A DNA stretch of 39,100 nucleotides from the NCBI GenBank assembly GCA_012839475.1, contig DUNG01000025.1, positions 1 to 39,100 of the forward strand, in the 5' to 3' direction. The notes beneath the pieces were generated by a model. That model saw only the letters and a list, made by a program, of their open reading frames with translations, was not told the DNA's origin and did not search any database. The DNA comes from Petrimonas sp. (lineage in GTDB: Bacteria; Bacteroidota; Bacteroidia; Bacteroidales; Dysgonomonadaceae). The position numbers and the translations under genes were made by a program. This document shows, one piece after another, positions 3,173 to 38,921 of the stretch (its first letter is position 1; every line of letters begins with the position of its first letter).

Positions 3173-4654
3173 TTACAAATGTTGTATTAAACGGTTCCAG
3201 CGTTGGTATGCTTGTTGGTATTGCTCCCTCTTCGCGTGGTTCGGCTCCACCACCTCGATCCTCTTAAGTGAACCGAACGCCTCTTCCGGGGAAGCGTAGA
3301 TGTTGGCCCCGATGCCCGCCGCCTTCGCGGCACCGGCCGCGCCGTCGGTATCGTATAGCTCGATCACGGCCCCGCTTGTCGATGCGAGGGTCTCACGGAA
3401 GATGGGACTCAAGAACATATTGGCGTTCCCTGCACGAATCACCTTGATGTCCACCCCCATTTGCTGCATGACCTCCATGCCGTAAACGAAAGAGAAGACA
3501 ATCCCTTCCTGGGCAGCCCGGAGGAGGTCCGGTAGACCGTGAATGTTGAAGTTGATACCATGGAATGAACTTCCCGGGTCTCTGTTCTCAAGTACCCGTT
3601 CCGCCCCGTTCCCGAACGGGATGACCGAGATGCCCCTGGCTCCAATGGGCGATTGGGCGGCGAGCCGGTTCATATCCACGTAACTCATCTCCCCGGGTAC
3701 CATGTTCTTTCGAACCCAGGAGTTCAGGATGCCGGTCCCGTTGATGCAGAGCAGTACACCCAATCGGGTTTGATCGGGTTTATGGTTCACGTGGGCGAAG
3801 AGGTTCACCCGCGATAGCGGGTCATACGCCACCTCATCCAGCACCCCGTATACTACGCCCGACGTGCCGGCGGTAGAGGCGATCTCCCCGGGGTTAAAGA
3901 CGTTCAGTGACACCGCGTTGTTGGGCTGATCACCCGCGCGGTAACTGATTGGCGTTCCCTCTTTTAACCCCACCTCCGCGGCGGCTGCCGCCGATACGGT
4001 ACCTTGAATACCGAACACTGGAACTATGGGGGGGATAAACGAATCCTCGAAACCGAAATAGTCCATCACGTCACGTGATACCTGGTTCTCCTTGAAATCC
4101 CAAAAGATGCCTTCGGATAACCCCTCCACGGTGACCGAGATATCTCCGGTGAGCTTCATAGCGATGTAATCGCCAGGCAGCATGATCTTGTGGATGCGCT
4201 CGTAGAGCTTCGGTTCGTTATCCTTTACCCAAGCCAACTTCGCCGCGGTAAAGTTTCCGGGAGAGTTGAGCAGGCGAGAGAGGGCTCGCTCCTCACCAAT
4301 CGCTTGAAACGCTTTTTCGCCGTACGGCACCGCGCGACTATCGCACCAGATAACGGCAGGGCGTAGAACTTTATGGTTCTCGTCTACCATCACCAGTCCG
4401 TGCATCTGCCATGAGATACCAATCGCTTTAACCTGTTCGGGTTTCGCCCCCGACTGTTGCATCACCGACGCGTGAGCCAGTTTCAGGTTTTCCCACCACA
4501 TGGCCGGGTCTTGCTCGGCCCACCCGGGTTGTTCGGCATGCATTGGCATCTCTGCCTTTGGGAAGTAGTCCGATGCCGCGATTTCCCCGGTTTTTATCTC
4601 GATCAGGGAGGCTTTTACCGACGAGCTCCCAATGTCGTATCCAAGTACATACAT
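3173..4654 (-). CDS. xylB: Xylulokinase (FGGY family)
   Basis: Phosphorylates D-xylulose to D-xylulose-5-phosphate, which enters the pentose phosphate pathway. The 493-residue protein starts with the FGGY ATPase motif ([12 protein letters not shown]), has the substrate-side motif SWQMHGLV at 81-88, and the catalytic-base Asp at 242 in AGDQPNN, with a STAGTSG phosphate-binding stretch after it. Its start is 8 bases after the GH67 stop, and xylA follows after 37 bases, so the two are co-transcribed. FGGY kinases vary in substrate, but pairing with xylose isomerase makes xylulose the clear choice. Confidence 0.95.
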
Positions 4655-9246: not shown

Positions 9247-9274
9247 GTAGTTATCATTACTAATTAATTGTTCT

Positions 9275-11263
9275 TTACCGTGTCTGCTCCGGTACCCGTA
9301 GCGTCGCCTCAAAGGGCGAAGCAGGTAGTCCTTGCCGGTTTTTCAGGTTCGCCTTTTCGGGGTTGTTGCCCCAAGCGTACCGAACGCTAACGGGTTCAGG
9401 TACCGAATCGCTCCAGACCACCACCTTGTTGTCTTCTATCGAAGCGTTAGCCCAGTGGTACCTGCCGTCTGCCCCGGCTATCGCGAACCCTTCCAGTTTC
9501 TGAACCGGAAGGAGATCGTTGCTTTTGTCCCCCTCAAACGAGAGGATTAACCGGTCTCCTTCTCCCACGATGGAGTTATGTATTGGCCCGTCGGCAACCG
9601 TTTCACGCTCGCCGTACGCGAGTCGACGTGCCTGCAACGAGAGCCGTCTTCCCACCTCCTTTTTGTCGAGGGGGTGTATATCGTTCCACTCCCCGATATC
9701 GATGGTCACGACCAAACCCGTTCCCGGGGTATCTGCCACAAGCTTTCGTTGGGCCTCCCGTAATTCCGCCCAATCGCTTTCTGACGGGTATGCAGGGTCT
9801 TGCATGAAGTTGGCGAGCTGGACAATCAGGAAAGGCAGGTCGGGCTGGTTCCAGTGGGTCCGCCAATCGTTTATCAGCGCTTTCATCAATCCGTTATACT
9901 CGTTGTACCTCTCCACGTTCGACTCCCCTTGGTACCAAAGTACCCCTTTGAAGGGCACTCGTTTCAAGGGAGATATGATCGCGTTGTATAACCCGGTGGG
10001 TTTGTATTGGAAGAAGGTTTCCCCGGGGAGTGAGGGCATTCTTGCTCCCAGCCTGTACTTCCATCTCCCTTCGAGGTTAATCTCGTAGGGGTTGGCTGGT
10101 TGCTGAAAGCGTATGAGGTAGGGCTTGTCTTCAACGAAGCCCGGGAACCCTGAATGGCTAACCAACCGAACGGCGATGTTGTTCTCACCCTCCTTGAGGA
10201 GTCCCTCGGGAACGGGGTAGATTCGCGGGGGGTACTGGTAGGCGATGGTGCCGACAAAGCGACCGTTGAGGTACACCGAGTCGGCATCCACGATACAGCC
10301 CAATCTTAATAAGGCGGGTTGACCAGCAAGGTGTGGGGGAACGGTGAGTGTTTTTCGAAACCAATGTACCCCGTTGATTGGATTCACCCCATCGCTTCCC
10401 CAGGCTTTATCGAACTGTTCAACCTCTTCCCACTGGCTGTCGTCATATTCCGGTTCGTACCACTTCGCTTTTTGGCTATACCCCTCGTCTCGCTTGTAGA
10501 GGGTGTGGTGCCAGGCTTCGCGGTGCGCTCTATCGAGTCGCTTCACGCTCTCCACCAGCTCGTCGTTCCTCCAAATATCCCGTTCGTTCAAATGGGCGGG
10601 GAAAGGTTTCAGCCCCTCTTCGCTAATCCATGCCTCGGCGGGGGAACCACCCACGCTCGCGTTGATCAAGCCGATTGGCACGCCCGTGGTCTCAAAGAGC
10701 TCCTTCGCGAAGAAGTAGGCCACTGCCGAAAAAGTAAGCGCGCTCTCGGGCGTTGCCTCATGCCAGGCAGCTGGTCGGATCTCATCTCGCGGCCCGTGAA
10801 AGTCGTATGACAGGGGTACCTTCAGGTGGCGAATCATCGGGTTGCTGTAGTTGACCACCTCCTCTCGGAATTTTTCCATAACACGGTTGATAGGCAGCTC
10901 CATATTCGATTGCCCGGAGCATAACCAAAGGTCACCAATCAAGATGTTCCTTACCTCGATTTCGTTGATACGCATGGTATAGGGACCGCCCGCGGGAGTT
11001 GGTGCCAGTTGGATCGTCCATGCTCCCTTTTCGTCGGCATTTACATGGTACCTTTTTCCCAGGAAGTGAATCTCAACCTGCTCCCCGGGGTCCGCGGTTC
11101 CCCATACGGGTATTTCCGTGTCCCGTTGAAGTACCATACCGTCTGCGATCAAGACAGGCAGTTTCACTTTCGCTTCACCGTATCCAACCGTTCCTATTAA
11201 GAACAGGCAAACGAGTACTGTCTTAATCGCGGCTTTCATCTCGCTCTCTCGTTTGTTTCTCAT
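9275..11263 (-). CDS. SGNH-type acetylesterase, sialate O-acetylesterase-like (CE20-like xylan acetylesterase)
   Basis: A 662-residue secreted esterase, first gene of the xylan operon. A signal peptide covers about residues 10-31. The SGNH nucleophile is S119 in CSGQSNMELP, a second block is LWYQGESN at 442-449, and the catalytic D528/H530 lie in DIHPLD. Residues about 270-390 form a beta-rich insert (jelly-roll type) splitting the hydrolase, as in CE20 enzymes. Databases usually call such proteins sialate O-acetylesterase, but with GH67, GH43 and xylose genes the likely job is removing acetyl groups from xylo-oligosaccharides. A second in-frame ATG at 11239 is possible and leaves the signal peptide intact. 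Confidence 0.88.
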   Translation of the reverse strand: MRNKRESEMKAAIKTVLVCLFLIGTVGYGEAKVKLPVLIADGMVLQRDTEIPVWGTADPGEQVEIHFLGKRYHVNADEKGAWTIQLAPTPAGGPYTMRINEIEVRNILIGDLWLCSGQSNMELPINRVMEKFREEVVNYSNPMIRHLKVPLSYDFHGPRDEIRPAAWHEATPESALTFSAVAYFFAKELFETTGVPIGLINASVGGSPAEAWISEEGLKPFPAHLNERDIWRNDELVESVKRLDRAHREAWHHTLYKRDEGYSQKAKWYEPEYDDSQWEEVEQFDKAWGSDGVNPINGVHWFRKTLTVPPHLAGQPALLRLGCIVDADSVYLNGRFVGTIAYQYPPRIYPVPEGLLKEGENNIAVRLVSHSGFPGFVEDKPYLIRFQQPANPYEINLEGRWKYRLGARMPSLPGETFFQYKPTGLYNAIISPLKRVPFKGVLWYQGESNVERYNEYNGLMKALINDWRTHWNQPDLPFLIVQLANFMQDPAYPSESDWAELREAQRKLVADTPGTGLVVTIDIGEWNDIHPLDKKEVGRRLSLQARRLAYGERETVADGPIHNSIVGEGDRLILSFEGDKSNDLLPVQKLEGFAIAGADGRYHWANASIEDNKVVVWSDSVPEPVSVRYAWGNNPEKANLKNRQGLPASPFEATLRVPEQTR

Positions 11264-13161: not shown

Positions 13162-13257
13162 GTCTAATGCTAATGAACTATTTCGTTAAGCCAAACGAGC
13201 AGAGGACAAGTTTACTTGGACTATGCCGTGGCGAGAAATAGTCTAATGTTAATGAAC
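13162..13257. repeat. Imperfect direct repeat around the eda stop codon
   Basis: GTCTAATGYTAATGAAC occurs at 13162-13178 and 13241-13257, 79 bases apart and differing at one base. The second copy contains the eda stop codon and its last codons. It may be a leftover of a local duplication. Confidence 0.7.
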
Positions 13258-13923
13258 CCTTATTTTCTTCACGATCGCAAGGCTGTTGCGGCACAGTTGG
13301 GTGATTGTCGACCAATCGCCTTCCTCTATCGCCTTTTTCGGGAATAGGTTTGACCCCATCCCCACGCAGGAGACTCCCGCGTTAAACCACGCCGATAGAT
13401 TCTCTTCGGTAGGTTCTACCCCGCCCGTCACCATGATTTTCGACCACGGCATGGGACCTCTCACGTTCTTCACGAAAGAGGCTCCTCCCACGTTACCCCC
13501 CGGGAATACCTTCACGATCTCGGCGCCCAGCTCTTGGGCCAGGCCGATTTCCGACGGGGTGGCGCATCCCGGCAAGTAAGCTACTTGTCGGCGGTTGCAA
13601 ACCTTGAAGATATCGGGGTTAAGCAGCGGGCCAACCACAAAGTTGGCGCCCAACTGGATGTAATGTGCGGCGGTGGGTGCGTCCACCACGGAGCCCACCC
13701 CCATGATCATCTCCGGGCATGCAGTGTCTGTCCATTTAACCAGTTCCGTGAACACCTCGTGGGCGAAATCGCCCCGGTTGGTGAACTCAAATGCCCTGAT
13801 GCCGCCCTCGTAGCACGCTTTTACCGCCGCTTTCGCGACCTCCACGTCGGGGTGGTAAAAAACCGGGATTATGCCCGTCTCCTCCATGGCCTGGTAGACC
13901 TGGAGCCTTGAAAATTTAGCCAT
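13249..13923 (-). CDS. eda: KDPG/KHG aldolase
   Basis: Cleaves 2-keto-3-deoxy-6-phosphogluconate to pyruvate and glyceraldehyde-3-phosphate (it may also act on 4-hydroxy-2-oxoglutarate). The 224-residue class I aldolase has the Schiff-base lysine K138 in EIVKVFPGG, the catalytic Glu at 46 in AFEFTNRGD and the phosphate-binding MVTGGVEPT. It follows kdgK by 97 bases, the standard kinase-aldolase pair for KDG. The last residues (after IKKIR-type sequence) come from a repeated 17-base motif, so the C terminus may have been altered. Confidence 0.95.
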
Positions 13924-26753: not shown

Positions 26754-28160
26754 ATGAGGAGTTTTATACACGATGACTTTTTGCTACAGACAGACGCCGC
26801 GAGACAGCTCTACCATGAGCACGCGGCGAAACAGCCCATCATCGATTACCACTGCCATTTGGATCCCGAGTACATCGCGCGGGATCACTCGTTTGATAAC
26901 CTGGGACAAATATGGCTGGAGGGTGACCACTACAAGTGGCGCGCGATGCGAACCAACGGGATCGCGGAGGAGTACTGTACCGGTAAGGAGACTACCGACT
27001 GGGAGAAGTTCGAAAAGTGGGCGGCGACGGTACCTTACACCATGCGGAACCCGCTGTACCACTGGACGCACCTGGAACTGAAGCGCGCGTTCGGGGTTGA
27101 TAAGCTGCTGAACCCATCCACCGCGAAGGAGATTTACGATGAATGCACCACGAAGCTCCGCACGCCGGAGTACTCGGCCCGCGGGCTGATGAAAAAGTTC
27201 CGGGTGGAGGTGGTTTGTACGACCGATGACCCGATTGACAGCCTACAGCATCACATCGCGCTCAAGGAGGAGGGATTCGAGATAAAGGTGCTGCCCACCT
27301 GGCGACCTGATAAGGCGATGGCGGTGGAAGATCCCGCGGCGTACCGCGCCTACGTGGAGAAGCTGTCGGCGGCTTCCGGGGTGACCATCAGTCGGTTCAG
27401 CGACCTGATCGAGGCGCTACGCGTGCGGCACGACTTCTTTGCGAGCGTGGGGTGTAAGCTGTCTGACCACGGCATCGAGGAGTTTTACGCCGAACCGTAC
27501 ACCCAAGCCGAGATCGACAGGATCTTCGACAAGGTATTTGGCGGGAACGAGCTCTCGAAGGAGGAGGTCCTGAAATTCAAGTCGGCCATGCTGCATGAGG
27601 GTGCCGTGATGGATTGGGAGAAAGGGTGGACGCAACAGTTTCACTACGGCGCCATCCGGAACAACAACACCCGCCTGTTTAACCGGGTGGGCCCCGATAC
27701 GGGGTTCGACTCGATTGGTGATTTCAGCGTGGCGAAGGCGATGAGCCGCTTTTTCGACCAGCTCGATAAGGAAAACAAACTGACCAAGACCATTATCTAC
27801 AACTTGAACCCCAAGGATAACGACATGGTGGCCACCATGATCGGCAACTTCCAGGATGGTTCCGTTGCCGGGAAGATGCAGTTCGGCTCGGGGTGGTGGT
27901 TCCTGGACCAAAAGACCGGGATGGAGGCGCAGATGAACTCCCTCTCCAACCTGGGACTCCTGAGTCGCTTCGTGGGCATGCTCACCGATTCGCGCAGCTT
28001 CCTCTCTTACCCTCGCCACGAGTACTTCCGCCGGATATTGTGTAACCTCGTGGGGAACGATGTGGAGCAAGGACTTCTCCCCGCGTCGGAGATGCCTTTC
28101 CTGGGTGAGATGGTCGAGAATATATCGTATAAAAACGCGAAGCGATATTTTGATTTTTAA
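26754..28160 (+). CDS. uxaC: Glucuronate/galacturonate isomerase (uronate isomerase)
   Basis: Converts D-glucuronate to D-fructuronate and D-galacturonate to D-tagaturonate in the cytoplasm. The 468-residue protein is of normal length. The amidohydrolase-fold metal motif is HCHLDP with H33 and H35, followed by the conserved KWRAMRTNGI loop and TTDDP. The end, FLGEMVENISYKNAKRYFDF, is the usual UxaC C terminus. It starts the plus-strand uronate module; uxaE follows after 118 bases containing a hairpin. GH67 (encoded at 4663) and the ExuT transporter would supply its substrate. Confidence 0.97.
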   Translation: MRSFIHDDFLLQTDAARQLYHEHAAKQPIIDYHCHLDPEYIARDHSFDNLGQIWLEGDHYKWRAMRTNGIAEEYCTGKETTDWEKFEKWAATVPYTMRNPLYHWTHLELKRAFGVDKLLNPSTAKEIYDECTTKLRTPEYSARGLMKKFRVEVVCTTDDPIDSLQHHIALKEEGFEIKVLPTWRPDKAMAVEDPAAYRAYVEKLSAASGVTISRFSDLIEALRVRHDFFASVGCKLSDHGIEEFYAEPYTQAEIDRIFDKVFGGNELSKEEVLKFKSAMLHEGAVMDWEKGWTQQFHYGAIRNNNTRLFNRVGPDTGFDSIGDFSVAKAMSRFFDQLDKENKLTKTIIYNLNPKDNDMVATMIGNFQDGSVAGKMQFGSGWWFLDQKTGMEAQMNSLSNLGLLSRFVGMLTDSRSFLSYPRHEYFRRILCNLVGNDVEQGLLPASEMPFLGEMVENISYKNAKRYFDF

Positions 28161-28190
28161 CTATTTAAAGGCTGAAAACATGTAAACTAT

Positions 28191-28259
28191 CTCAACTTTG
28201 ACATGCTGTTTTTTACTTTTTGCTTTTAAGTCAAAAATTCGGAACAGCTGAAAGTTGAG
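28191..28259 (+). promoter_or_regulatory. Hairpin between uxaC and uxaE
   Basis: CTCAACTTT (28191-28199) pairs with AAAGTTGAG (28251-28259), and CTGTT (28206-28210) with AACAG (28243-28247) inside it. The stem ends 19 bases before the uxaE ATG and has no T run, so it may set the uxaC:uxaE ratio by stability or translation control. Confidence 0.5.
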
Positions 28260-28278
28260 TAAACTAACCATAGGAACA

Positions 28279-29526
28279 ATGAAATTAGGAAAGTACAGCA
28301 TCGGTGTAGGTGACCGCTTCACCTACCAGGGAGAAGCCCAGTTGAGGGCCATCATGAAAGCGAATGAAAAGGGGGTGGATATTGTACCCGTTTGGAACAA
28401 ATCGAACCGTGAACATATTTACGTGGGCACCAAGCCCATGGATACGCGGGTGGAGGCGGACAATGCGGTGAAAGCGTTGAACTACCAGGGAGCCTACTTC
28501 GTGGATGCCGACCATATCAACCTGGACACGGTGAGCAGTTACGTGGAGTCGTCCGATTTTTTCACGCTCGACGTGGCCTCGTTTATCGGTAAGGAGAGTA
28601 GCCCGGAAAAGGTGGAGGCGTTCGTCGCCTCCTGCCAGAACTATACTGGTTACCTGCAGATCCCCGGTATCCTTGAGCCGCTGCGCATATCGGATCAGTT
28701 GCTACGGCGTGTAGCGGGTAAGTTTTTGGCGGCCATCGACCATGCCGCGGAGATCTACGCTTACCTGAAGAGCGAGAAGGGCGAGGGGAATTTTATCACG
28801 GAGGTGTCGATGGATGAGGTGGAGTCGCCCCAGACCCCGGTGGAGTTGCTCTTTATCTTGAAGATGTTGGCCGACAAGAAGGTACCCGCGCAGACCATAG
28901 CGCCCAAGTTCACCGGTCGGTTCAACAAGGGGGTCGATTACGTGGGTGATCTCGACCGGTTCGCCAGGGAGTTCGAGGAGGACCTGTTGGTTATCGACTT
29001 CGCGGTGAAGGAGTTCGGGCTGCCCAAGGAGCTTAAACTCAGCGTCCATTCCGGAAGCGATAAGTTCTCTATATACCCGATCATCGCGGAGGCCATCGCT
29101 AAGCACGGCAAGGGGATTCACCTCAAGACGGCTGGTACAACGTGGCTCGAAGAGGTCATCGGCTTGGCGATGGCTGGCGGCGAAGGGCTCGCGCTGGCGA
29201 AGAGAATCTACGAGCGCTCCTTTACCCGGCGGGAAGTGTTGTGTGCTCCCTACGCTGATGTAATCGATATCGACGAATCGAAGCTGCCCCCGGTGGCTGA
29301 GGTCAATGGGTGGAGCGGCGATAAGTTTGCCAACACGCTCCGGCATATCCCGGGACATCCCGACTACAACCCCAACTTCCGGCAGTTGATTCACGTGGCC
29401 TACGCGGTGGCGGCCGAGATGGGCAGTGAATATACCGACCTCCTGGTGAAACATGCCGACGTGGTGGGTTCTTGCGTAGAGGAGAACATTTACGACAGGC
29501 ACCTGAAACGGTTGTTTAACCTGTAA
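28279..29526 (+). CDS. uxaE: Tagaturonate epimerase
   Basis: Interconverts D-tagaturonate and D-fructuronate, joining galacturonate to the glucuronate route without UxaB/UxaA. UxaE was defined in Thermotoga; the long conserved SVHSGSDKFSIYP segment and the N-terminal KLGKYSIGVGDRF fit that family. I place the start at the ATG at 28279 (MKLGKYS), preceded by ATAGGAACA; the frame runs up to a TTG at 28255 that lies inside a hairpin and lacks support. The protein is 415 residues. A terminator follows directly. No altronate genes (uxaA, uxaB) are present, in line with epimerisation being the galacturonate route here. Confidence 0.9.
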   Translation: MKLGKYSIGVGDRFTYQGEAQLRAIMKANEKGVDIVPVWNKSNREHIYVGTKPMDTRVEADNAVKALNYQGAYFVDADHINLDTVSSYVESSDFFTLDVASFIGKESSPEKVEAFVASCQNYTGYLQIPGILEPLRISDQLLRRVAGKFLAAIDHAAEIYAYLKSEKGEGNFITEVSMDEVESPQTPVELLFILKMLADKKVPAQTIAPKFTGRFNKGVDYVGDLDRFAREFEEDLLVIDFAVKEFGLPKELKLSVHSGSDKFSIYPIIAEAIAKHGKGIHLKTAGTTWLEEVIGLAMAGGEGLALAKRIYERSFTRREVLCAPYADVIDIDESKLPPVAEVNGWSGDKFANTLRHIPGHPDYNPNFRQLIHVAYAVAAEMGSEYTDLLVKHADVVGSCVEENIYDRHLKRLFNL

Positions 29527-29540
29527 ACATGGTGTTGCTT

Positions 29541-29582
29541 AAACCTGCCGTATACCAAACGGGACGTACGGTGGGTTTTTTG
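29541..29582 (+). terminator. Intrinsic terminator after uxaE
   Basis: AAACCTGCCGTA (29541-29552) pairs with TACGGTGGGTTT (29567-29578), 12 bp with two G-U pairs, then a T run to 29581. It lies 15 bases after the uxaE stop. Confidence 0.85.
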
Positions 29583-29655
29583 TTGCGGATCGATGCGTGA
29601 TCGGAATGCATGGATCGAGTCGCGTGGCAAATGGCGTACGGGGGATCAGCCTTAA

Positions 29656-30723
29656 TTAGATGATGTTGTTAAACCGCTTGTAGAACCCGATGTTTTCTCG
29701 CGTAAGGATGTCGAGTTGGACGTAGTTCTCCCGCTTGACCGGTTTCTTGAATATAAGGTGTTCCAGCATGGTTTTCATCGCGTGGAACCCCTGATGTTCA
29801 GGCTCCTGTCCAATAAGGTAGTCGATCTGTCCTCTCTTTAGTGCCTCTACGTTAGGAGTGGTGAGGTCTAAACAGACCATTTTAACATCCTCGATGTGGT
29901 TGTTATAGAGGTAATTGGCCACGTAGTTACCCCGTGAGTTCATCACCACGACACCCGGGATGTCGTGGTGGTCAGTGAAAAACCGGGAAAGGTAAGCCTC
30001 GTTGTTTTCCGGCTCGTCCACCGAAAAGGGGATTCGCAATACCTGGTACGCGGATTTCAGCTTGGACAGATAATCCATGAAGCCCTTTTTACGCTGGATG
30101 GTGGAGTTTGCACTCCGATTGCCTACCCGAACGGCTTGCAGGATACCGATCTTGGAGTCGGCGGGGATAAGCGAGGTGATCAACTTGGCCATTAGGGTTC
30201 CGCACATGTAGTGATCCGACGAAAAAAAGGCGAGTGGGGAGGCACCCTCGTTGTTCGAATCCACGAATATGTAGGGGATCTCCCTCTCATCCATTATCTC
30301 GCACAAAGCGTTGGTCTCGTCGTGAAAGGTGGGACCTATGATCAAGGCATCCATCTCCGTCTCGGCGATTTGCCGGAACACCTCCTTGCAGGAGAAGAGG
30401 TCGTACTGGTTGTAGGTAAGTACCTCGATCGTTAACTTGAGGTTCGCGTACGCCTCTTTCGCGTGATGAATGCCCTGGTGAATGCTCTCCCAATACTCCC
30501 CGGGGGAGACGCTGGGCGTTGTGATCAAGATCTTGTACGTTCGCTTCAGCGAGAGTGCTGAAATGTGGATGTTTGGCTTGTAGTCTACCTTTTCAAGTAC
30601 CGCCTCTACCGCTTTGCGCGCTTTAGGCGAAACGTTGCCACGATTATGTAAGACACGATCCACCGTACCGGCAGAAACACCGGCCAGCCGTGCGATATCT
30701 TTGATACGGATTTTTTTTTGCAT
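29656..30723 (-). CDS. LacI-family transcriptional regulator
   Basis: A 355-residue DNA-binding protein. Residues 5-55 form the LacI helix-turn-helix and hinge (IKDIARLAGVSAGTVDRVLHNRG, then KPNIHISALSLKR). The rest is a periplasmic-binding-protein-like sensor (GPTFHDE, FSSDHYMCGTLMA, DLTTPNVEALKRGQIDYLIGQEP). It is transcribed away from uxuB. The 237-base gap contains a perfect 20-bp palindrome with a central CG, as is usual for LacI operators, so it probably controls itself and the uxuB operon. A related site lies at the kdu promoter. The inducer is likely a hexuronate or aldonate, inferred from the neighbours. Confidence 0.92.
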   Translation of the reverse strand: MQKKIRIKDIARLAGVSAGTVDRVLHNRGNVSPKARKAVEAVLEKVDYKPNIHISALSLKRTYKILITTPSVSPGEYWESIHQGIHHAKEAYANLKLTIEVLTYNQYDLFSCKEVFRQIAETEMDALIIGPTFHDETNALCEIMDEREIPYIFVDSNNEGASPLAFFSSDHYMCGTLMAKLITSLIPADSKIGILQAVRVGNRSANSTIQRKKGFMDYLSKLKSAYQVLRIPFSVDEPENNEAYLSRFFTDHHDIPGVVVMNSRGNYVANYLYNNHIEDVKMVCLDLTTPNVEALKRGQIDYLIGQEPEHQGFHAMKTMLEHLIFKKPVKRENYVQLDILTRENIGFYKRFNNII

Positions 30724-30754
30724 AACCTGCTAATGAAAAAGTATCGCCATTTCT

Positions 30755-30784
30755 TTTGCGCGATGCATTATTTTTGTATTTTTG
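30755..30784 (+). promoter_or_regulatory. Promoter of the uxuB operon
   Basis: TTTG (30755-30758), 18 bases, TATTTTTG (30777-30784). The -7 box runs into the palindrome at 30780. The leader to uxuB is about 170 bases and includes a small hairpin (AACTGTGT 30872-30879 with ACACGGTT 30887-30894). Confidence 0.7.
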
Positions 30785-30799
30785 TGTACGTACACAAAA
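30780..30799. promoter_or_regulatory. Perfect 20-bp palindromic operator
   Basis: TTTTGTGTACGTACACAAAA is its own reverse complement. It has the central CG expected of LacI-family operators and lies between the LacI gene and uxuB. Both outward promoters have their -7 boxes overlapping its edges, so bound repressor would silence both. Confidence 0.85.
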
Positions 30800-30802
30800 G
30801 TA
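30795..30802 (-). promoter_or_regulatory. -7 box of the LacI-family regulator gene
   Basis: Minus-strand TACTTTTG mirrors the plus-strand -7 box across the palindrome and is identical to the -7 box of the kdu operon. No clear TTTG stands at -33. The leader to the regulator ATG would be about 65 bases. Confidence 0.55.
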
Positions 30803-30960
30803 GGACTATTTTTTGAAAATAAAAATAATTCGCGTGATTTACTACCGCGCCACGAGGAGTTATTTAGTGCCAACTGTGTGTGAATGACACGGTTTTAGAG
30901 ATGTAAACGCGGCCACCCATATTATAGCGACCATTATAACGATCTAAAATAATAAAGAGT

Positions 30961-31773
30961 ATGTATACATTGTTTGATATCCATGACAAGGTGATTGTCA
31001 TTACCGGGGGAACCGGGGTGTTGGGCACGTCGATGGTAGAGTACCTGGCGGCTCACGGTGCGAAAGTGGCGGTGCTTGCCAGAAATATTGAGAAAGGGAA
31101 CCGGCTGATCGATAAGGTAAAGGCTGATGGGGGGGACGCGATCTTCCTGCAGACCGACGTGACCAATGAGGAGGTGCTGCAACAGAACGCCGACGCGATC
31201 GCGAAGCGCTACGGGCGCATCGACGTGTTGATCAACGGTGCGGGGGGGAATATGCCGGGAGCCACCATCGGCCCGGACAGCACCATCTTCGACCTGAAGG
31301 CGGACGATTTCCGGAAGGTGGTAGACCTGAACCTGATGGGTACCGTGTTGCCCACCCTTGCTTTTGCTAAGCAGATGATGCAAGAGAAAAAGGGCAATAT
31401 CGTCAATATCTCATCGGCCTCGGCGCTTCGACCGCTTACCCGCGTGGCCGGTTACGGTGCGGCGAAGGCGGCGGTGACCAACTTCACCAAGTACATGGCC
31501 GGCGAGATGGCCATCAAGTTCGGCGAAGGGTTCCGCGTGAACGCGCTCTGCCCCGGCTTCTTTATCACCGAGCAGAACCGAACCCTGTTGACCAACCCCG
31601 ACGGCTCCTACTCCGATCGCGGGAAGAGCATCATCGCGCACACCCCCTTCCGCCGCTTCGGCGTGCCCGAAGACCTGCTGGGAACGCTCCACTACCTGGT
31701 GAGCGACGCGTCGAAGTTCGTGACGGGAACGGTAGCCATCGTGGATGGGGGGTTCGACGCCTTTAGTATTTAA
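30961..31773 (+). CDS. uxuB: D-mannonate oxidoreductase (fructuronate reductase), SDR type
   Basis: Probably reduces D-fructuronate to D-mannonate with NAD(P)H. The 270-residue short-chain dehydrogenase has ITGGTGVLG at 14-22, NGAGG at 92-96 and catalytic Y165/K169 in GYGAAKAAV after the SSAS segment. The SDR type of UxuB is known from Bacillus (YjmF) and Thermotoga, and differs from the long-chain enzyme of E. coli. First gene of the plus-strand operon behind the LacI operator. The product would normally go to mannonate dehydratase UxuA, which is not in this window. Confidence 0.82.
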   Translation: MYTLFDIHDKVIVITGGTGVLGTSMVEYLAAHGAKVAVLARNIEKGNRLIDKVKADGGDAIFLQTDVTNEEVLQQNADAIAKRYGRIDVLINGAGGNMPGATIGPDSTIFDLKADDFRKVVDLNLMGTVLPTLAFAKQMMQEKKGNIVNISSASALRPLTRVAGYGAAKAAVTNFTKYMAGEMAIKFGEGFRVNALCPGFFITEQNRTLLTNPDGSYSDRGKSIIAHTPFRRFGVPEDLLGTLHYLVSDASKFVTGTVAIVDGGFDAFSI

Positions 31774-31862
31774 CGTGGTATCGATGGGGTTCAACGACCA
31801 ACTACGAATCGAAAACAATCAACAAGCATTATATTAATATAGAGTAAATCATAACAACACCT

Positions 31863-32942
31863 ATGTCGTTAACGTTAAGAAAAAAGTTCAAATATGCCCT
31901 GGTGGTACCCACCAGCATGGGGGTACGCATTACCCCCGCCAATGGGCTGCCGGCTTACAGCACCAACCTGTTCGAGATGCATGCGACCAGCGCGGAGACC
32001 AACGTGGCCAGCATCTCCTCCTACCTGGGTCTGCCAGTGAAGGCGCTGACCGCCTTCGTGAAGGGGAGCCCCGTGGCCGATTTCATCAAGTCGGATCTAA
32101 GGGCGCGGAACATCGAGTATGAAGGGCCGGAGGTACCGCAAGGGGGTCCCTGGGGCTACCGCCACCAGTTCAATATCGCCGATAGCGGCTTCGGGCTGCG
32201 GGGGCCGCGGGTGCATAACGACCGGGCGGGTGAAGTGGGACGCACGTTGAGCGTGAAGGACTTTGATCTTGATAGGCTTTTTGGGAAGGAGGGTGTACAG
32301 ATCGTGCACCTCTCCGGGCTGATTGCCGCCCTGTCGCCCGAGACGAGCCAGTTTTGCTTAGAGGTGGCCCGCTTCGCGAAGCGGCACGGCACCCTCATCT
32401 CGTTCGACCTGAACCACCGGGCTACCTTCTGGAAAGGGCGCGAGGAGGAGTTGCATGCCGCGTTCACCGAGATCGCCTCGTTATCGGATATCCTGATTGG
32501 CAACGAGGAGGATTACCAACTCTGCCTCGGGGTCAAAGGGCCGGAAGCCGGGGGAGAGAATATCGAGGAGACCATCGATGCCTTCAAGGGGATGATCATG
32601 AACGCGAAGAAAGCGTTCCCGAACGTCACGGTGTTCGCCAACACGCTCCGGGAGGTAATTAGCGCGAATGAGCACCTGTGGGGAGCCATCGTCTATGAGA
32701 ACGGCAACTGGCACGAGGCACCGCTGCGGACGATCAAGGTGATGGACCGCATTGGCGGGGGCGATGGGTTCGTCGGGGGGTTGCTGTACAGCATCCTGAC
32801 CGGTATGGAGCCCGAGAAGTGGGTGCGGTTCGCGTGGGCGAGCGGCGCTCTGGCAACCACCTTCCTGACCGATTACGCGCAGCCGGCCGACGAGGCGATG
32901 ATCTGGAGCATCTGGGAGGGGAACGCCCGGGTTAAGAGGTAA
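31863..32942 (+). CDS. PfkB-family sugar-acid kinase, candidate gluconate kinase
   Basis: A 359-residue ribokinase-fold kinase with C-terminal signature DRIGGGDGFVGG (295-306) and catalytic base D301. The N-terminal substrate block (ATSAETNVASISSYLG) is diverged from that of most PfkB kinases. It is a paralogue of KdgK encoded at 14021: similar length, FDLNHR versus CDLNYR, and IGNEEDYQLCLG versus LGNEEDAEKVFG. That argues for a sugar-acid substrate. Since KdgK is already present and gnd follows, D-gluconate to 6-phosphogluconate is the most economical reaction; KDG or a 2-ketogluconate are alternatives. It lies 89 bases after uxuB. Confidence 0.8.
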   Translation: MSLTLRKKFKYALVVPTSMGVRITPANGLPAYSTNLFEMHATSAETNVASISSYLGLPVKALTAFVKGSPVADFIKSDLRARNIEYEGPEVPQGGPWGYRHQFNIADSGFGLRGPRVHNDRAGEVGRTLSVKDFDLDRLFGKEGVQIVHLSGLIAALSPETSQFCLEVARFAKRHGTLISFDLNHRATFWKGREEELHAAFTEIASLSDILIGNEEDYQLCLGVKGPEAGGENIEETIDAFKGMIMNAKKAFPNVTVFANTLREVISANEHLWGAIVYENGNWHEAPLRTIKVMDRIGGGDGFVGGLLYSILTGMEPEKWVRFAWASGALATTFLTDYAQPADEAMIWSIWEGNARVKR

Positions 32943-32980
32943 ATTACAATATAATTGAATTTTCGCATATTATTAACTCT

Positions 32981-33215
32981 ATGAGCTTTCAGGGCAAAGA
33001 CCTCGTAAACTTTCGTGGGAACACATCCTGCGAAGATCGCGTTAAAAAAGAAAAGCTGTTTGAGCGTATGCGAGTTATTTTTCTTTTAGCGATCAAGCAG
33101 TAGATGGGTCACGAAATTTACGCCAGTCGAGCCTGAAAGCTATTAATTTTCTTAGGAGCGAGAGCAGAACCAAGTATGCTTGAGTTTTGCCGAGAGACGA
33201 CAGAAAAGGCAATAA
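32981..33215 (+). ncRNA. Candidate structured leader RNA upstream of gnd
   Basis: The 320-base gap 32943-33262 can fold on the plus strand. AGCTTTCAGG (32984-32993) pairs perfectly with CCTGAAAGCT (33132-33141). Inside, GATCGC (33035-33040) pairs with GCGATC (33089-33094) and continues into an A-rich/T-rich stem. Downstream are CAAG-TATG-CTTG (33171-33182) and TTGCC/GGCAA (33187-33212). The last stem ends about 50 bases before the gnd ATG. A 40-codon frame (32981-33103) also spans the 5' part but is judged fortuitous or a leader peptide. I do not recognise an Rfam family. Confidence 0.4.
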
Positions 33216-33262
33216 GTTGAAACAGTTACAAGCGAAAGTTAAGTAATATAAAAAATAGTAGC

Positions 33263-34717
33263 ATGAAGCAAAAAGCAGATATTGGATTGATCGGGTTGGC
33301 CGTGATGGGCGAGAACCTGGTACTCAACATGGAGAGCAAAGGGTATACCGTGGCCGTCTATAACCGCACCGTATCCAAGGTACACAACTTTATCAACGGG
33401 CGGGGTAAAGGGAAGAATTTCATCGGCGCCGACTCGCTGGAGGAGCTGGTGAGCGCCATCAAGCGGCCCCGCAAGGTGATGATGCTGGTGAAAGCGGGCA
33501 AACCGGTAGATGACTTTATCGAGCGGCTAATCCCCCTGCTGGAGCCGGGCGACATCATCATCGACGGTGGCAACAGCCACTTCCCGGATACTATCAGAAG
33601 GACGGCGTACGTGGAGAGCAAGGGCTTGCTCTACGTGGGGACGGGTGTCTCCGGTGGTGAGGAGGGAGCCCTCCTGGGCCCCTCCATGATGCCGGGCGGC
33701 TCCCCCGACGCGTGGCCCCACGTCAAGGAGATATTCCAGGCCGTGTCGGCCAAGGTAGACGATGGCTCCCCCTGTTGCGACTGGGTGGGCGAGAACGGGG
33801 CGGGTCACTTCGTGAAGATGGTCCATAACGGCATCGAGTACGGCGATATGCAGATCATCAACGAGGCGTATCACCTGATGAAGGAGCTGCTGGGGATGGA
33901 TGCATTCGAGCAGCACGAGGTGTTCAAGCGGTGGAACAAGGGGGTGCTGGACTCCTACCTGATCGAGATCACGGCCGATATCCTGGCTTACAAGGATGAG
34001 GATGGAAGTCCGCTCGTGGAGAAGATCCTGGATACGGCGGGACAGAAGGGAACCGGGAAGTGGACGGCCGTCACGGCGCTCGACCTGGGTATACCGCTCA
34101 CGCTGATCGGTGAATCGGTCTTCTCGCGCTGCCTCTCGGCACAGAAAGATTTACGGGTTAAAGCCTCGAAAGCGATCAAGGTGGCGAAGAAACCCTTCGA
34201 AGGCGATAAGCAACAGTTTATCGACGACCTGGAGAAGGCGCTATACGCGGCTAAGATCATCTCCTATGCGCAGGGGTACGACCTGATGATGGAGGCGGCC
34301 AAAGAGTACAACTGGAACCTCAACTACGGGGGGATCGCACTGATGTGGCGAGGCGGTTGCATTATCCGCTCTCGCTTCCTGGGCGATATCAAAAACGCGT
34401 TCGATAAGAACCCCTCGCTGGAGAACCTGCTGCTCGACCCCTTCTTCAAGGAGGAGGTATTGTCGGCCCAAGAGAGCTGGCGCAGGGTATGTGCCACTGC
34501 GTTGATGCACGGCGTACCGGTCCCGGCCCTCACCGCGGCCTTGACCTACTTCGACGGGTTCCGCAATGAGCGGCTGCCGGCTAACCTGCTGCAGGCACAG
34601 AGGGACTACTTCGGCGCGCATATGTATGAGCGGGTGGATGCCCCCCGCGGGGAGTATTTTCACACCGACTGGACGGGGCGGGGTGGTAGTACGGCATCGA
34701 CCATGTACGACGTTTAA
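33263..34717 (+). CDS. gnd: 6-Phosphogluconate dehydrogenase, decarboxylating
   Basis: Oxidises 6-phospho-D-gluconate to ribulose-5-phosphate and CO2. The 484-residue protein is of the long (E. coli-like) type. The dinucleotide motif is GLIGLAVMGENLVLNM, and NRT after the second strand (residues 34-36) favours NADP. The substrate motif is GVSGGEEGALLGPSMMPGG, and catalytic K185 and N189 are in GHFVKMVHNGIEYGDMQ, with E192 matching the E. coli acid. It is not next to zwf or pgl, as usual for the oxidative pentose phosphate pathway, but inside a uronate operon and three bases before a LarA-family gene. That indicates 6-phosphogluconate is made here from an aldonate. Confidence 0.97.
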   Translation: MKQKADIGLIGLAVMGENLVLNMESKGYTVAVYNRTVSKVHNFINGRGKGKNFIGADSLEELVSAIKRPRKVMMLVKAGKPVDDFIERLIPLLEPGDIIIDGGNSHFPDTIRRTAYVESKGLLYVGTGVSGGEEGALLGPSMMPGGSPDAWPHVKEIFQAVSAKVDDGSPCCDWVGENGAGHFVKMVHNGIEYGDMQIINEAYHLMKELLGMDAFEQHEVFKRWNKGVLDSYLIEITADILAYKDEDGSPLVEKILDTAGQKGTGKWTAVTALDLGIPLTLIGESVFSRCLSAQKDLRVKASKAIKVAKKPFEGDKQQFIDDLEKALYAAKIISYAQGYDLMMEAAKEYNWNLNYGGIALMWRGGCIIRSRFLGDIKNAFDKNPSLENLLLDPFFKEEVLSAQESWRRVCATALMHGVPVPALTAALTYFDGFRNERLPANLLQAQRDYFGAHMYERVDAPRGEYFHTDWTGRGGSTASTMYDV

Positions 34718-34720
34718 GGC

Positions 34721-36004
34721 ATGATCTATTACGAGAAAGGCTCACCGGGTACCAGCTTGTCGCACGCGGATCTGCAGCAAGGACTACAGGAAGCGTTGGA
34801 CAAGCTGGGGGAAAGGCGTAAGGTACTTGCCATACCACCCGATTACACCCGCCTGCCGAGCCGGGCGGGAGAACTTACCGAGATGGCATGGAAGTACTTT
34901 GGCGATCGTCTCACCGACGTGCTGCCGGCATTGGGTACGCACACCCCCATGACCGATGAGCAGATCAGTCATATGTTCGGGAAACTTCCCGCGTCGCTCA
35001 TACGGGAACACGACTGGAGGAACGACGTCATCACGTTGGGAGAGGTGCCGGCGAGTTACGTGAGGGAGGTGAGCGATGGGGACGTCGACTTCCCTTGGCC
35101 GGCGCAGGTAAACAGGTTACTGGTGGAAGGGGGGTTCGACCTGATCCTCTCGATCGGGCAGGTGGTACCTCACGAGGTGGTGGGGATGGCCAACTACAAC
35201 AAGAATATCCTCGTGGGGACCGGCGGTAGCGAGGGGATCAACAAGAGCCATTACATCGGTGCCGTGTACGGCATGGAGCGGATGATGGGTCGTTCCGATA
35301 CGCCCGTCCGCCGCGTATTTAACTACGCTACCGAGAAGTTCCTGCACGAGCTGCCTATCCTCTACGTCCTTACCGTGGTGGGCGTAAACGAGGAGGGAAG
35401 GCAACAGACCTACGGGCTGTTCGTGGGAGATGACCTTGAGGTGTTCGAGCGGGCAGCCAAACTTTCGTTGGAGGTGAACTTCGTGATGGTGGAGCGGCCG
35501 CTGAAAAAGACGCTGGTATGGCTCGACCCCACCGAGTTCAAGAGCACCTGGCTGGGTAACAAGTCGATCTACCGCACGCGGATGGCGATTGCCGATGGGG
35601 GCGAGCTGATCGTGCTGGCGCCTGCGCTAAAAGAGTTCGGTGAGGATAAAGAGATTGATCACCTTATCCGAAAGTACGGCTACCACGGTACACCGGCTAC
35701 ACTGAAGGCCGTCGCGGAGAACCAAGACCTCCGGGAGAACCTTAGTGCGGCTGCCCACCTGATTCACGGCTCGTCGGAGGGTCGGTTTACCGTGACCTAC
35801 TGCCCGGGGAAGGGGAGCGAGAACCTCACCCGGGAGGAGATCGAGAGCGTGGGGTTCCAATGGGGCGACTACGATGAGGTGATGAGTAGGTACGACCTAT
35901 CAAAGCTGAAAGAGGGGTTCAACCAGCTCCCCGATGGGGAAGAGATCTACTACATATCGAGCCCGGCCCTTGGCCTGTGGGCGCATAGGGATCGGTTCGA
36001 GTAG
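34721..36004 (+). CDS. LarA-family nickel-dependent 2-hydroxyacid epimerase, candidate D-mannonate/D-gluconate 2-epimerase
   Basis: A 427-residue LarA (DUF2088) protein. The signature residues of Lactiplantibacillus plantarum LarA are all found: D41 and R44 in PPDYTRLPS (LarA D72, R75), H74 in GTHTP (H108), H151 in PHEVVG (H174), K161 in NKNILVG (K184, which carries the nickel-pincer nucleotide) and H177 in KSHYIG (H200, nickel ligand). The 10- and 16-residue spacings between the last three are identical to LarA. It should therefore epimerise a 2-hydroxyacid at C2 by hydride transfer. The LarA superfamily is known to include a D-gluconate 2-epimerase. Placement three bases after gnd, in an operon with uxuB and a sugar-acid kinase, points to mannonate -> gluconate. 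The cofactor genes larB, larC and larE are not in the window. Confidence 0.82.
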   Translation: MIYYEKGSPGTSLSHADLQQGLQEALDKLGERRKVLAIPPDYTRLPSRAGELTEMAWKYFGDRLTDVLPALGTHTPMTDEQISHMFGKLPASLIREHDWRNDVITLGEVPASYVREVSDGDVDFPWPAQVNRLLVEGGFDLILSIGQVVPHEVVGMANYNKNILVGTGGSEGINKSHYIGAVYGMERMMGRSDTPVRRVFNYATEKFLHELPILYVLTVVGVNEEGRQQTYGLFVGDDLEVFERAAKLSLEVNFVMVERPLKKTLVWLDPTEFKSTWLGNKSIYRTRMAIADGGELIVLAPALKEFGEDKEIDHLIRKYGYHGTPATLKAVAENQDLRENLSAAAHLIHGSSEGRFTVTYCPGKGSENLTREEIESVGFQWGDYDEVMSRYDLSKLKEGFNQLPDGEEIYYISSPALGLWAHRDRFE

Positions 36005-36030: not shown

Positions 36031-37473
36031 ATGAACATAAATCAAAACAACATGACAACAAGAAGAGAATTTATTAAAACCGCGACCTTAGCATCAGCAG
36101 GGCTCGCGATGGGCGGTATCACCACACGAACCAATGCCGCGAGTTACAGCCGCATCGTGGGTGCTAACCAAAAGGTGAACTTGGCGGTCATCGGGATTGG
36201 TAATCGTGGATGGGATATCATTAACGACTTTGATAGGACGGGGTTGGCCAACGTGGTGGCGCTGTGCGACGTGGACTTGGGTGCCCAGCACACCAGGAAT
36301 GCGCTGAACAAGTTTCCGAACGCCAAGCGTTTCAAGGATTTCCGGGAGATGTTCGACAAGATAGGTAACGAGTTCGAGGCGGTGGCGATCGCGACACCCG
36401 ACTTCGCCCACTTCCCGGCCACCATGATGTCGATCGTCGAGGGGAAGCATGTCTTCGTGGAAAAACCATTGACAAGAACGTTTCACGAGTCGGAGCTCCT
36501 GCTCAAAGCCGTCGCCAAGTACCCCAACGTGGTGACCCAGATGGGTAACCAGGGGCACTCCGAGGCCAACTACTTCCAGTTTAAAGCGTGGAAAGAGGCG
36601 GGGATCATCAAGGACGTGACGGCCGTGACCGCGCACATGAACAACCCGCGCCGCTGGCACGGCTGGGACCCCTCCATCACTCGTTTCCCGGCTGCCGAAC
36701 CTATTCCGGAGACGCTGGACTGGGACGTCTGGCTGATGGCCCAACGCCACCACGATTACAACAAAGATTTTCATAACGGCCAATGGCGTTGCTGGTATGA
36801 CTTCGGGATGGGTGCCTTGGGCGATTGGGGGGCGCACATCATCGATACGGTGCACGAGTTCCTTGACCTGGGACTACCGGAAGAGGTTACACCCCTGTTA
36901 TTAAAAGACCATAACGACTACTTCTTCCCCATGTCGAGCACGATCGAGTTCAAGTTCCCCGCAAGGGGTGATATGCCCCCGCTGACGATTACCTGGTATG
37001 ACGGCCTGGATAACATCCCCGCCGTCCCGGAAGGGTATGGCGTATCGGAACTCGATCCCAACATCCCACCGGTGGCTGGCGGGAAGATCCAACCGGCTAA
37101 GCTGAACCCCGGGAAGGAGATCTACAGCAAGGAGCTTACGTTCAAGGGCGGATCGCATGGTAGCACGCTGAGTATCATCCCCGACGAGAAGGCGAAGGAG
37201 ATGGAGAAGCACCTGCCGGAAGTACCCCCAAGTCCCTCCAACCATTATGCTAACTTCCTGTTGGCCTGCCTGGGTAAGGAGAAGACCCGCTCACCGTTCG
37301 AGATTTCTGCCCCGCTAAGCCAGGTGTTCTGTCTTGGCGTGGCTGCCCAGCGACTCAATCGCAAGATCGTGTTCGATCGTGAAACGAAGCGGGTGACGAA
37401 TGACGCGTTCGCGGACGCGTACCTAACCGGTGAGCCGCCAAGGAAAGGTTGGGAGGACTTTTACGTGATTTAA
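36031..37473 (+). CDS. Tat-exported Gfo/Idh/MocA-family oxidoreductase
   Basis: A 480-residue oxidoreductase with twin-arginine leader (TTRREFIKTATLASAGLAMGG). The nucleotide motif is VIGIGNRGWD, and VEKPLTRTF holds the conserved lysine. Aromatic-rich segments (RRWHGWDPS, QWRCWYDFGMGALGDWGAHIIDT) are typical of the large Bacteroidota branch of this family. It lies 26 bases after the LarA-family gene and 89 before a tandem-DUF1080 lipoprotein. Exported Gfo/Idh enzymes paired with DUF1080 proteins have been linked to glycoside cleavage through 3-keto intermediates, so a role in the periplasm on uronosyl or xylosyl substrates is plausible. A second ATG at 36052, just before TTRREF, could be the true start. 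Confidence 0.87.
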   Translation: MNINQNNMTTRREFIKTATLASAGLAMGGITTRTNAASYSRIVGANQKVNLAVIGIGNRGWDIINDFDRTGLANVVALCDVDLGAQHTRNALNKFPNAKRFKDFREMFDKIGNEFEAVAIATPDFAHFPATMMSIVEGKHVFVEKPLTRTFHESELLLKAVAKYPNVVTQMGNQGHSEANYFQFKAWKEAGIIKDVTAVTAHMNNPRRWHGWDPSITRFPAAEPIPETLDWDVWLMAQRHHDYNKDFHNGQWRCWYDFGMGALGDWGAHIIDTVHEFLDLGLPEEVTPLLLKDHNDYFFPMSSTIEFKFPARGDMPPLTITWYDGLDNIPAVPEGYGVSELDPNIPPVAGGKIQPAKLNPGKEIYSKELTFKGGSHGSTLSIIPDEKAKEMEKHLPEVPPSPSNHYANFLLACLGKEKTRSPFEISAPLSQVFCLGVAAQRLNRKIVFDRETKRVTNDAFADAYLTGEPPRKGWEDFYVI

Positions 37474-37562
37474 TGGCCTTCGTCTAAGAAGTGAGTAGAA
37501 GGGAAATAGGTGAAAAAACTAATTAATAGAGAACAAACAAAGAAAACAAAAAAGGAGTAATA

Positions 37563-38921
37563 ATGAAGAAAATAGCTTTTTTAGCAACCACATGTATGTT
37601 CGTCTTGGCCTCCTGTTCGCAGGGACCCAAGTGGCAGGAGCTGTTCAACGGGAAAGACCTTCAGGGATGGGAAAAGCTGAATGGCACGGCCGAGTACAAA
37701 GTGGAAGACAACACCATCATCGGCATTTCCGCAATGAACACGCCCAACACGTTCCTGGCTACCACGGAAGAGTACGGTGATTTTATCCTGGAGTTCGACT
37801 TTAAAGTGGACGATGGGTTGAACTCGGGGGTTCAGTTTAGGAGCTTGAGCATGGACGAGTATCAGAACGGACGCGTGCATGGGTATCAATTCGAGATCGA
37901 CCCGTCGGATCGAGCTTGGACGGGAGGCGTCTACGACGAAGCGCGTAGGGGCTGGTTATATCCCTTAACCTACAATCCAGAGGGGCAAGCCGCCTTTAAA
38001 AACGGCGAGTGGAACAGTGCCCGCATTGAAGCGATCGGCAGCTCCATCCGTACATGGGTCAACGGGATACCATGTACCGATCTGTTGGACAACACTACCT
38101 CTACTGGCTTTATCGCCCTGCAGGTGCACTCTATCAGGAACGAGGAGTTGGTCGGCAAGACGGTCTCCTGGCGTAATATACGAATACTCACCGAGGATCT
38201 TGACATCTACCGGACCCCAGACAACCCTGAGGTGAAACAATTGAACACGATTGCCAACACCATCTCCGAGCGCGAGGCCGCGGAAGGGTGGGAGCTGCTC
38301 TGGGATGGTGAAACCACGGAAGGATGGCGAGGTGCCCGGCTCGATGGTTTTCCCGAGATCGGGTGGTCCATCGAAAACGGCATCCTCAAGGTGCACAAGA
38401 GCGATGGTGGGGAATCCACCAACGGTGGCGATATCGTTACCACGAAGCCCTACAAGAACTTCATGCTGAAAGTCGATTTCCGGATAACCGAAGGCGCCAA
38501 CAGTGGTATCAAGTACTTCGTGGATACTGACCTGAACAAGGAGGGTACAGGGTCGGCTATTGGCTGCGAGTTTCAGATTCTGGACGACCAGAATCACCCC
38601 GACGCCAATATGGGTAAAGATGGAAACCGGACGCTCGGCTCGCTTTACGACTTGATTGCGGCACCGACAGACAAGCCTTTCCGTCGAGGGTTCTTTAACA
38701 CGGCCCAGGTCGTGGTGCAAGGGAACCACGTAGAGCACTGGCTGAACGGGATTAAAATCGTGGAATACGAGCGCAATACCGACGAGTGGAACAAGCTAGT
38801 GCAGACCAGCAAGTACAAAAATTGGCCCAACTTCGGAAACGCCGAAGAGGGGTTGATCTTGCTGCAAGACCACGGCGATGAGGTGTGGTTCCAGAATATC
38901 AAGATCAAAGTGCTGGAGTAA
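37563..38921 (+). CDS. Lipoprotein with two DUF1080 domains (3-keto-glycoside hydrolase/lyase-like)
   Basis: A 452-residue protein with a lipoprotein leader (FVLASCS, Cys at 18). Two DUF1080 jelly-roll domains follow: about 24-210, beginning [15 protein letters not shown], and about 243-451, beginning [15 protein letters not shown]. Each shows the family pattern of GD/KNF-xLxxDFxxxxGxNSGxxF and a later GxxExQI/YQFEI strand. DUF1080 proteins from Bacteroides act on 3-keto-glycosides formed by Gfo/Idh oxidoreductases, which matches its neighbour. Two fused domains suggest either two specificities or one catalytic and one binding domain. It is the last gene of the operon, 30 bases before the terminator. 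Confidence 0.88.

Follow-up and report, generated by a model that had tools for sequence, protein, structure and literature searches.

The canonical hexuronate isomerase route proceeds through UxaC, UxuB, UxuA, KdgK and Eda. A different exit from mannonate, via gluconate to 6-phosphogluconate, was proposed for Thermotoga maritima by Rodionova in 2012 (PMC3750489, PMC6978723, PMC7583248), and its epimerase step was assayed in 2020 with the enzyme GntE2 (PMC7583248). The T. maritima UxaR-regulated galacturonate locus has the order gnd-uxaR-uxaE-uxaD-gntE-gntK, and the organism also has a canonical kdgA-kdgK-uxuB-uxuA operon (PMC3750489). In Lactobacillus suebicus, mannonate is likewise diverted from the isomerase pathway towards 6-phosphogluconate and Gnd, although there the kinase acts first and neither step has been assigned a gene (PMC6978723). 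Here we describe a uronate gene cluster comprising uxaC, uxaE, uxuB, a PfkB-family kinase gene, gnd and a larA homologue (LarA18) in a 39.1-kb stretch of Petrimonas sp. DNA (hereafter the window, meaning this whole stretch), which is contig C35 of a 3.39-Mb genome, G000 (61 contigs, 99.49% complete).

Profile matches confirmed that these six genes lie together, as a preliminary description of this DNA had stated, and that only 3 bases separate gnd from the larA homologue (Table 1). Like the T. maritima locus, the cluster brings together uxaE, a mannonate oxidoreductase, a LarA-type hexonate epimerase, a kinase and gnd, in a genome that also holds canonical genes; for T. maritima, too, mannonate is proposed to enter the pentose phosphate pathway in this way (PMC7583248, PMC6978723). 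It shares UxaC and UxuB with the canonical route but, unlike that route, has no UxuA in the operon, and its KdgK-like kinase and Eda are encoded in another cluster of the window. The two loci differ in the group of the LarA homologue (18 here, 20 in T. maritima), in the kinase (PfkB family versus GntK) and in the regulator (LacI family versus GntR family). T. maritima GntK is a member of the FGGY family. T. maritima further possesses LarC (by profile search) and a characterised LarE (PMC9283937), neither of which was found in G000. The route itself, which the preliminary description had presented as possibly new, is therefore not so, having been proposed for T. maritima and assayed at its epimerase step; what is new here is the Bacteroidota version, with its LarA group, kinase family and regulator, and with no known cofactor makers found. 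No Bacteroidota version turned up in the literature searched, the supplements and the original 2012 paper lying beyond the reach of that search.

Table 1. Features of the window that bear on hexuronate metabolism
Feature	Position	Strand	Profile match or remark
uxaC, glucuronate/galacturonate isomerase	26754-28160	+	PF02614 676 bits, NF002794 666 bits
uxaE, tagaturonate/fructuronate epimerase-like	28255-29526	+	PF16257 184 bits, profile positions 77-468 of 475; no NCBIfam match
lacI, LacI-family regulator, divergent from uxuB	29656-30723	-	PF00356, PF13407
Candidate operator, perfect 20-bp palindrome	30780-30799		between lacI and uxuB
uxuB, short-chain dehydrogenase/reductase D-mannonate oxidoreductase (fructuronate to mannonate)	30961-31773	+	NF006132 372 bits vs 281
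PfkB-family kinase, proposed gluconate (or mannonate) kinase	31863-32942	+	PF00294
gnd, long-type decarboxylating 6-phosphogluconate dehydrogenase	33263-34717	+	TIGR00873 748 bits
LarA homologue, group 18 (LarA18), proposed D-mannonate/D-gluconate 2-epimerase	34721-36004	+	NF052594 662.6 bits
Gfo/Idh/MocA oxidoreductase, conserved downstream neighbour	36031-37473	+	PF01408
3-keto-disaccharide hydrolase (DUF1080), conserved downstream neighbour	37563-38921	+	PF06439 309 bits
KdgK-like PfkB, better 2-keto-3-deoxygluconate (KDG) kinase candidate of the genome	14021-15097	-	kinase half of NF041633, 508 bits
Eda, 2-keto-3-deoxy-6-phosphogluconate aldolase	13249-13923	-	NF005499 366 bits

We propose that the operon probably encodes a branch of hexuronate breakdown that supplies the pentose phosphate pool through mannonate and gluconate. 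Glucuronate, perhaps released by the glycoside hydrolase family 67 (GH67) alpha-glucuronidase encoded in the window, or galacturonate would be isomerised by UxaC; UxaE would convert tagaturonate to fructuronate, which UxuB would reduce to D-mannonate. LarA18 would then invert C2 to yield D-gluconate by hydride transfer via a tethered nickel-pincer-type cofactor, the operon PfkB would phosphorylate gluconate, and Gnd would decarboxylate the resulting 6-phosphogluconate to ribulose-5-phosphate and CO2. None of the substrates is more than inferred here, and the same holds for the regulation, the cofactor and the order in which epimerase and kinase act. This is the best-supported reading because the neighbourhood is conserved, zwf was not found in G000, nor uxuA in many relatives, and the LarA homologue carries a hexonate-epimerase signature. 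The interpretation given in the preliminary description is thus supported in part, with two reservations about the chemistry: a kinase-first order is possible, and no known genes for making the nickel cofactor were found here. If correct, the reading would carry the route from Thermotoga (where it is proposed) and one Lactobacillus (where a variant was shown) into many Bacteroidota as well as some Ignavibacteria and Planctomycetota. It would also give LarA group 18 a function and the PfkB family a new kinase activity, and explain the retention of gnd where zwf was not found.

The LarA homologue passes the NCBIfam model for a 'nickel-dependent putative hexonate epimerase' (cut-off 500 bits), whose name places it in group 18 of Desguin 2020, a group hypothesised in that work, without assay, to use a hexonate as groups 19 and 20 do (PMC7583248). 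Its nearest solved sequence is 4nar (136 bits), which is T. maritima GntE2 (PMC7583248), and 4nar is also the top fold match of its AlphaFold model (mean predicted local distance difference test score 91.2; template modelling score 0.81). The residues for catalysis and for binding of the nickel-pincer nucleotide (NPN), D41, R44, H74, H151, K161, H177 and K281, which we matched by hand through the 4nar alignment to LarA D72, R75, H108, H174, K184, H200 and K298, are invariant in the 12 family sequences of one alignment and in the 30 rows of a wider one. Equally invariant (12/12 and 30/30) are E152, V153, A345 and H346, likewise assigned by hand through 4nar. E, V, A and H at the positions of LarA F175, F176, W358 and T359 constitute the signature of D-gluconate 2-epimerase, GntE (PMC11770544). 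Family membership, residues and predicted fold are direct observations; that LarA18 acts as a D-mannonate/D-gluconate 2-epimerase is what we propose from them.

To these can be added the genes observed around larA18 and their conservation. We read 39 LarA18 stretches from 38 of the 55 LarA18-carrying genomes of the same bacterial family, 36 of which hold a LarA18 of the main clade. On the same strand and within 6 kb of LarA18, gnd was present in all 36 main-clade loci and uxuB and PfkB in 34 each; DUF1080 occurred in 28 and a Gfo/Idh homologue (at least 60% identity) in 27. Beyond the family, we took the best 80 loci among the matches listed from named genomes. The LarA18 frame was called in 75 of them (gene calling missed it in L139, L140, L156, L162 and L165), and 70 were counted once the contigs already in the family count (L087, L088, L089, L095 and L098) had been set aside. 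These 70 loci, some of which end at contig edges, included gnd in 48, uxuB (at least 40% identical) in 51, PfkB (at least 60%) in 36 and uxuA in 8. The taxa represented include Prolixibacteraceae, Paludibacter, Chitinophagaceae, Ignavibacteria, Planctomycetota, Verrucomicrobia and Acidobacteria. Some of them have only part of the gene set, and in the acidobacterial locus L161 no gnd, uxuB, PfkB or uxuA neighbour was recognised.

The preliminary description had called for a survey of genomes in which uxuB, this LarA clade and gnd occur together without uxuA. Across 101 family genomes, those lacking a listed match being placed by subtraction, LarA18 was found in 55. Co-occurrence was borne out by the conserved uxuB and by long-type gnd, found in all 55 LarA18 genomes (52 over the cut-off and 3, G043, G044 and G086, as contig-edge pieces) versus 6 of the 46 remaining genomes. 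One more of these 46, G069, has a 143-residue piece, and 29 of the 46 carry a shorter gnd. The absence of uxuA held in part only: uxuA occurs in 60 of the 101 genomes, and 26 LarA18 genomes have it whereas 29 do not. Of the 35 LarA18 genomes with a completeness of 90% or more, 13 had no uxuA that we could find, and 7 of these (G040, G042, G049, G050, G061, G082 and G098) had no Eda match either; of these, G049 and G050 each consist of one contig. LarA18 and uxuA were negatively associated, with p 0.008 over all 101 genomes, the survey counting related genomes and its p-values ignoring kinship. A zwf match was found in 89 of the 101 genomes. The nine genomes with long gnd and no zwf match (five of them at least 90% complete; G086 by its gnd piece only) all carry LarA18, and G000 is among them: the genome search found no zwf there, and the operon gnd is its single gnd match.

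The label 'KdgK-like' that the preliminary description gave to the operon kinase proved loose. The protein does belong to the PfkB family, and its nearest solved relatives are KDG-kinase-like proteins, so from sequence alone a KDG role is conceivable; a better KdgK candidate lies next to Eda in the window, apart from the uronate operon. This second PfkB is 27% identical to the operon PfkB, which shares 66-75% identity with the corresponding kinases of L117, L125 and L160. On the kinase half of NF041633, a fusion model with a cut-off of 700 bits that neither protein reaches, the KdgK-like protein scores 508 bits versus 164 for the operon PfkB. A second, KdgK-like PfkB and Eda also lie beside LarA18 genes in some other loci (model-confirmed for the kinase in L117 and for Eda in L121, by cluster membership only in L123 and L125), and an Eda-cluster member occurs in 12 loci. 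The presence of a separate KdgK-like PfkB and Eda, in the window and at these loci, makes it unlikely that the LarA18-adjacent PfkB is a KDG kinase; judged by this gene context, it probably phosphorylates gluconate or mannonate.

Several observations weigh against the proposed route, and each is best considered beside the alternative that it bears on. No assay of any group-18 enzyme was found in the literature searched, and the window encodes beside xylA (3173-4654) a kinase of the FGGY family, one of those that include gluconokinases. Group 18 invariably has R285, R287, R355 and H349; opposite the first two, GntE2 has K and Q by manual alignment, which makes a difference in substrate possible and a phosphate site conceivable. 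This would suit a kinase-first order, in which PfkB is a mannonate kinase and LarA18 a 6-phosphomannonate 2-epimerase. Extracts of L. suebicus phosphorylate mannonate first and epimerise it next (PMC6978723), and the kinases vary between loci, PFK-family (PRK14072-like) and HAD-family proteins standing beside LarA18 in L128 (6960-9994) and L159 (7534-9904) where other loci have PfkB. The E,V,A,H signature, however, belongs to enzymes assayed on free mannonate and gluconate (PMC7583248, PMC11770544), and we consider the kinase-first order unlikely.

The remaining canonical genes bear on a more ordinary explanation. The preliminary description had reported uxuA missing, which is true at the locus; a whole-genome search, however, gave a full-length copy at G000:C19:11335-12513, the only uxuA match of the genome, so absence from the genome is rejected. 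It lies beside a second uxuB, 45% identical to the operon uxuB, with DUF6807 and Gfo/Idh genes nearby. The KdgK-like gene and the Eda gene are neighbours in the window, and this Eda is the sole PF01081 match in G000. A second, canonical branch thus exists in the genome, and the LarA bypass is not obligatory in this organism. The preliminary description had named a functional uxuA carrying all flux as grounds for giving up the route; the gene itself is present. In 46 of the 55 LarA18 genomes there is a zwf, so that gnd can serve the normal oxidative branch in most relatives. Of the 75 named loci in which a LarA18 frame was called, 8 also hold uxuA. Among the 66 family genomes that are at least 90% complete, the association of LarA18 with uxuA has p 0.17. 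Eda, which we considered as a marker of the bypass and rejected, shows no association with LarA18 (p 1.0 over all 101 genomes; p 0.55 in the 66). Finally, none of gluconate, glucuronate and galacturonate is reported to have supported growth of T. maritima, the precedent (PMC3750489), so that flux through its route is presumed.

The canonical genes of G000 and the presence of zwf in most LarA18 genomes would fit an ordinary mixture, in which the canonical route carries the flux, gnd works in the usual pentose phosphate pathway, and LarA18 performs a side reaction on another sugar acid, much as the native substrate of group 19 may be something else than mannonate (PMC7583248). Against such a mixture stand the failure to find zwf in G000, the invariable position of gnd by main-clade LarA18 in the family loci read, and the near-complete LarA18 genomes with no uxuA match, over half of which also have no Eda match. 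We regard it as decidedly improbable.

The proposed mannonate-gluconate route also faces a difficulty in the cofactor, and raises the question of how a LarA enzyme works in a cell without LarB, LarE and LarC. Among the 101 family genomes, LarC (PF01969) was found in none, and LarE (TIGR00268) and LarB (NF033503) exceeded their cut-offs in just the same 3. All three proteins were below cut-off in 52 of the 55 LarA18 genomes, including the one-contig G041, G049, G050 and G054, and in G000 none of them exceeded it; nearly every genome gave sub-cut-off, paralogue-like scores (LarE up to 42 bits and LarB up to 60, among the matches listed). The same searches of 14 control genomes found LarC in 6, including T. 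maritima and C. glutamicum, LarE over its cut-off in 5 and LarB in 6. Genomes with NPN makers but without LarA have been described (PMC11796402); no report of LarA without the maker genes was found in the literature searched.

We considered whether LarC has merely diverged in the family. Starting from 50 of the 80 named loci, chosen so as to leave out those taken for family members or short contigs, we searched 50 genomes and found LarC in 21. In three of the 21, two Carboxylicivirga and one Marinilabiliaceae, it takes a short form of 262-271 residues that matches the LarC1 model only (L177 8975-9772, L178 9071-9859 and L179, where within 8873-11219 the frame adjoins diverged LarB and LarE). 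PF01969 still finds these short frames (E 1.8e-24 to 3.1e-23), so a similar form in the family should have shown up, and simple divergence is rejected. Cofactor genes in the LarA18 neighbourhoods were also sought. The identified neighbours (Gfo/Idh, DUF1080, PdxB-like, HAD and PFK proteins) do not point to cofactor synthesis, and none was recognised as a cofactor gene except in three genomes.

These three are G040, G084 and G053, the remaining family loci, in which a diverged LarA18 (45-47% identical) has larE and larB after it; the LarC search found nothing in these genomes either. At L047 (G040:C46, 7253-11927) the diverged larA18, larE and larB lie inside the uronate operon, and a 65-residue LarA18 remnant, 77% identical to the window LarA18 and 36% to the diverged copy, follows gnd. 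That a copy accompanied by NPN-maker genes replaces the usual LarA18 in G040 is good evidence for an NPN step. It is very unlikely that LarA18 is NPN-independent or inactive where the makers were not detected, as their absence over cut-off might suggest, given that its cofactor-tethering, nickel-ligand and catalytic residues are invariant in the aligned sequences, which is not the pattern of a decaying gene, and that the gene is kept beside gnd in the 36 main-clade family loci read. Import of the cofactor, an undescribed way of making it, or use of a different cofactor may account for the missing makers. It is quite possible, and we put it forward tentatively, that dozens of Bacteroidota in which LarB, LarE and LarC were not detected run an NPN-type epimerase in a carbon route, with cofactor from an undiscovered biosynthesis or from the community, together with a new PfkB gluconate or mannonate kinase.

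The preliminary description had also placed uxuB, pfkB, gnd and larA18 in one operon behind a LacI operator. A candidate operator is indeed present between lacI and uxuB, the palindrome TTTTGTGTACGTACACAAAA (shuffled sequence gives a mean of 0.01). That the four genes form a single operon is presumed, since 320 bases separate pfkB and gnd. The 14-base core of the palindrome is present in 8 of 184 loci, corresponding to 6 stretches (two pairs of loci overlap), and occupies the same lacI-uxuB intergenic position in L061 and L065, the two closest loci by operon proteins. It also occurs between larA18 and a second, following uxuB in L058 (10640-10653) and L082 (8811-8824), and because it precedes this second uxuB, one regulator may control additional uronate genes there.

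The window also encodes a xylose isomerase (xylA), the adjoining FGGY kinase, the GH67 alpha-glucuronidase and a GH88-like enzyme, which together fit with use of glucuronoxylan. An IS5-like transposase (201-1568) adjoins the xylose genes. The Gfo/Idh oxidoreductase and 3-keto-disaccharide hydrolase genes (36031-38921) trail the operon in most family loci read. A cluster of proteins of about 377 residues (L114 11463-12590, L132 11281-12423 and 31 more) occurs in 33 named loci and in no family locus read; in 30 of these loci its gene stands between larA18 and gnd in the same orientation, and two members pass the PdxB model.

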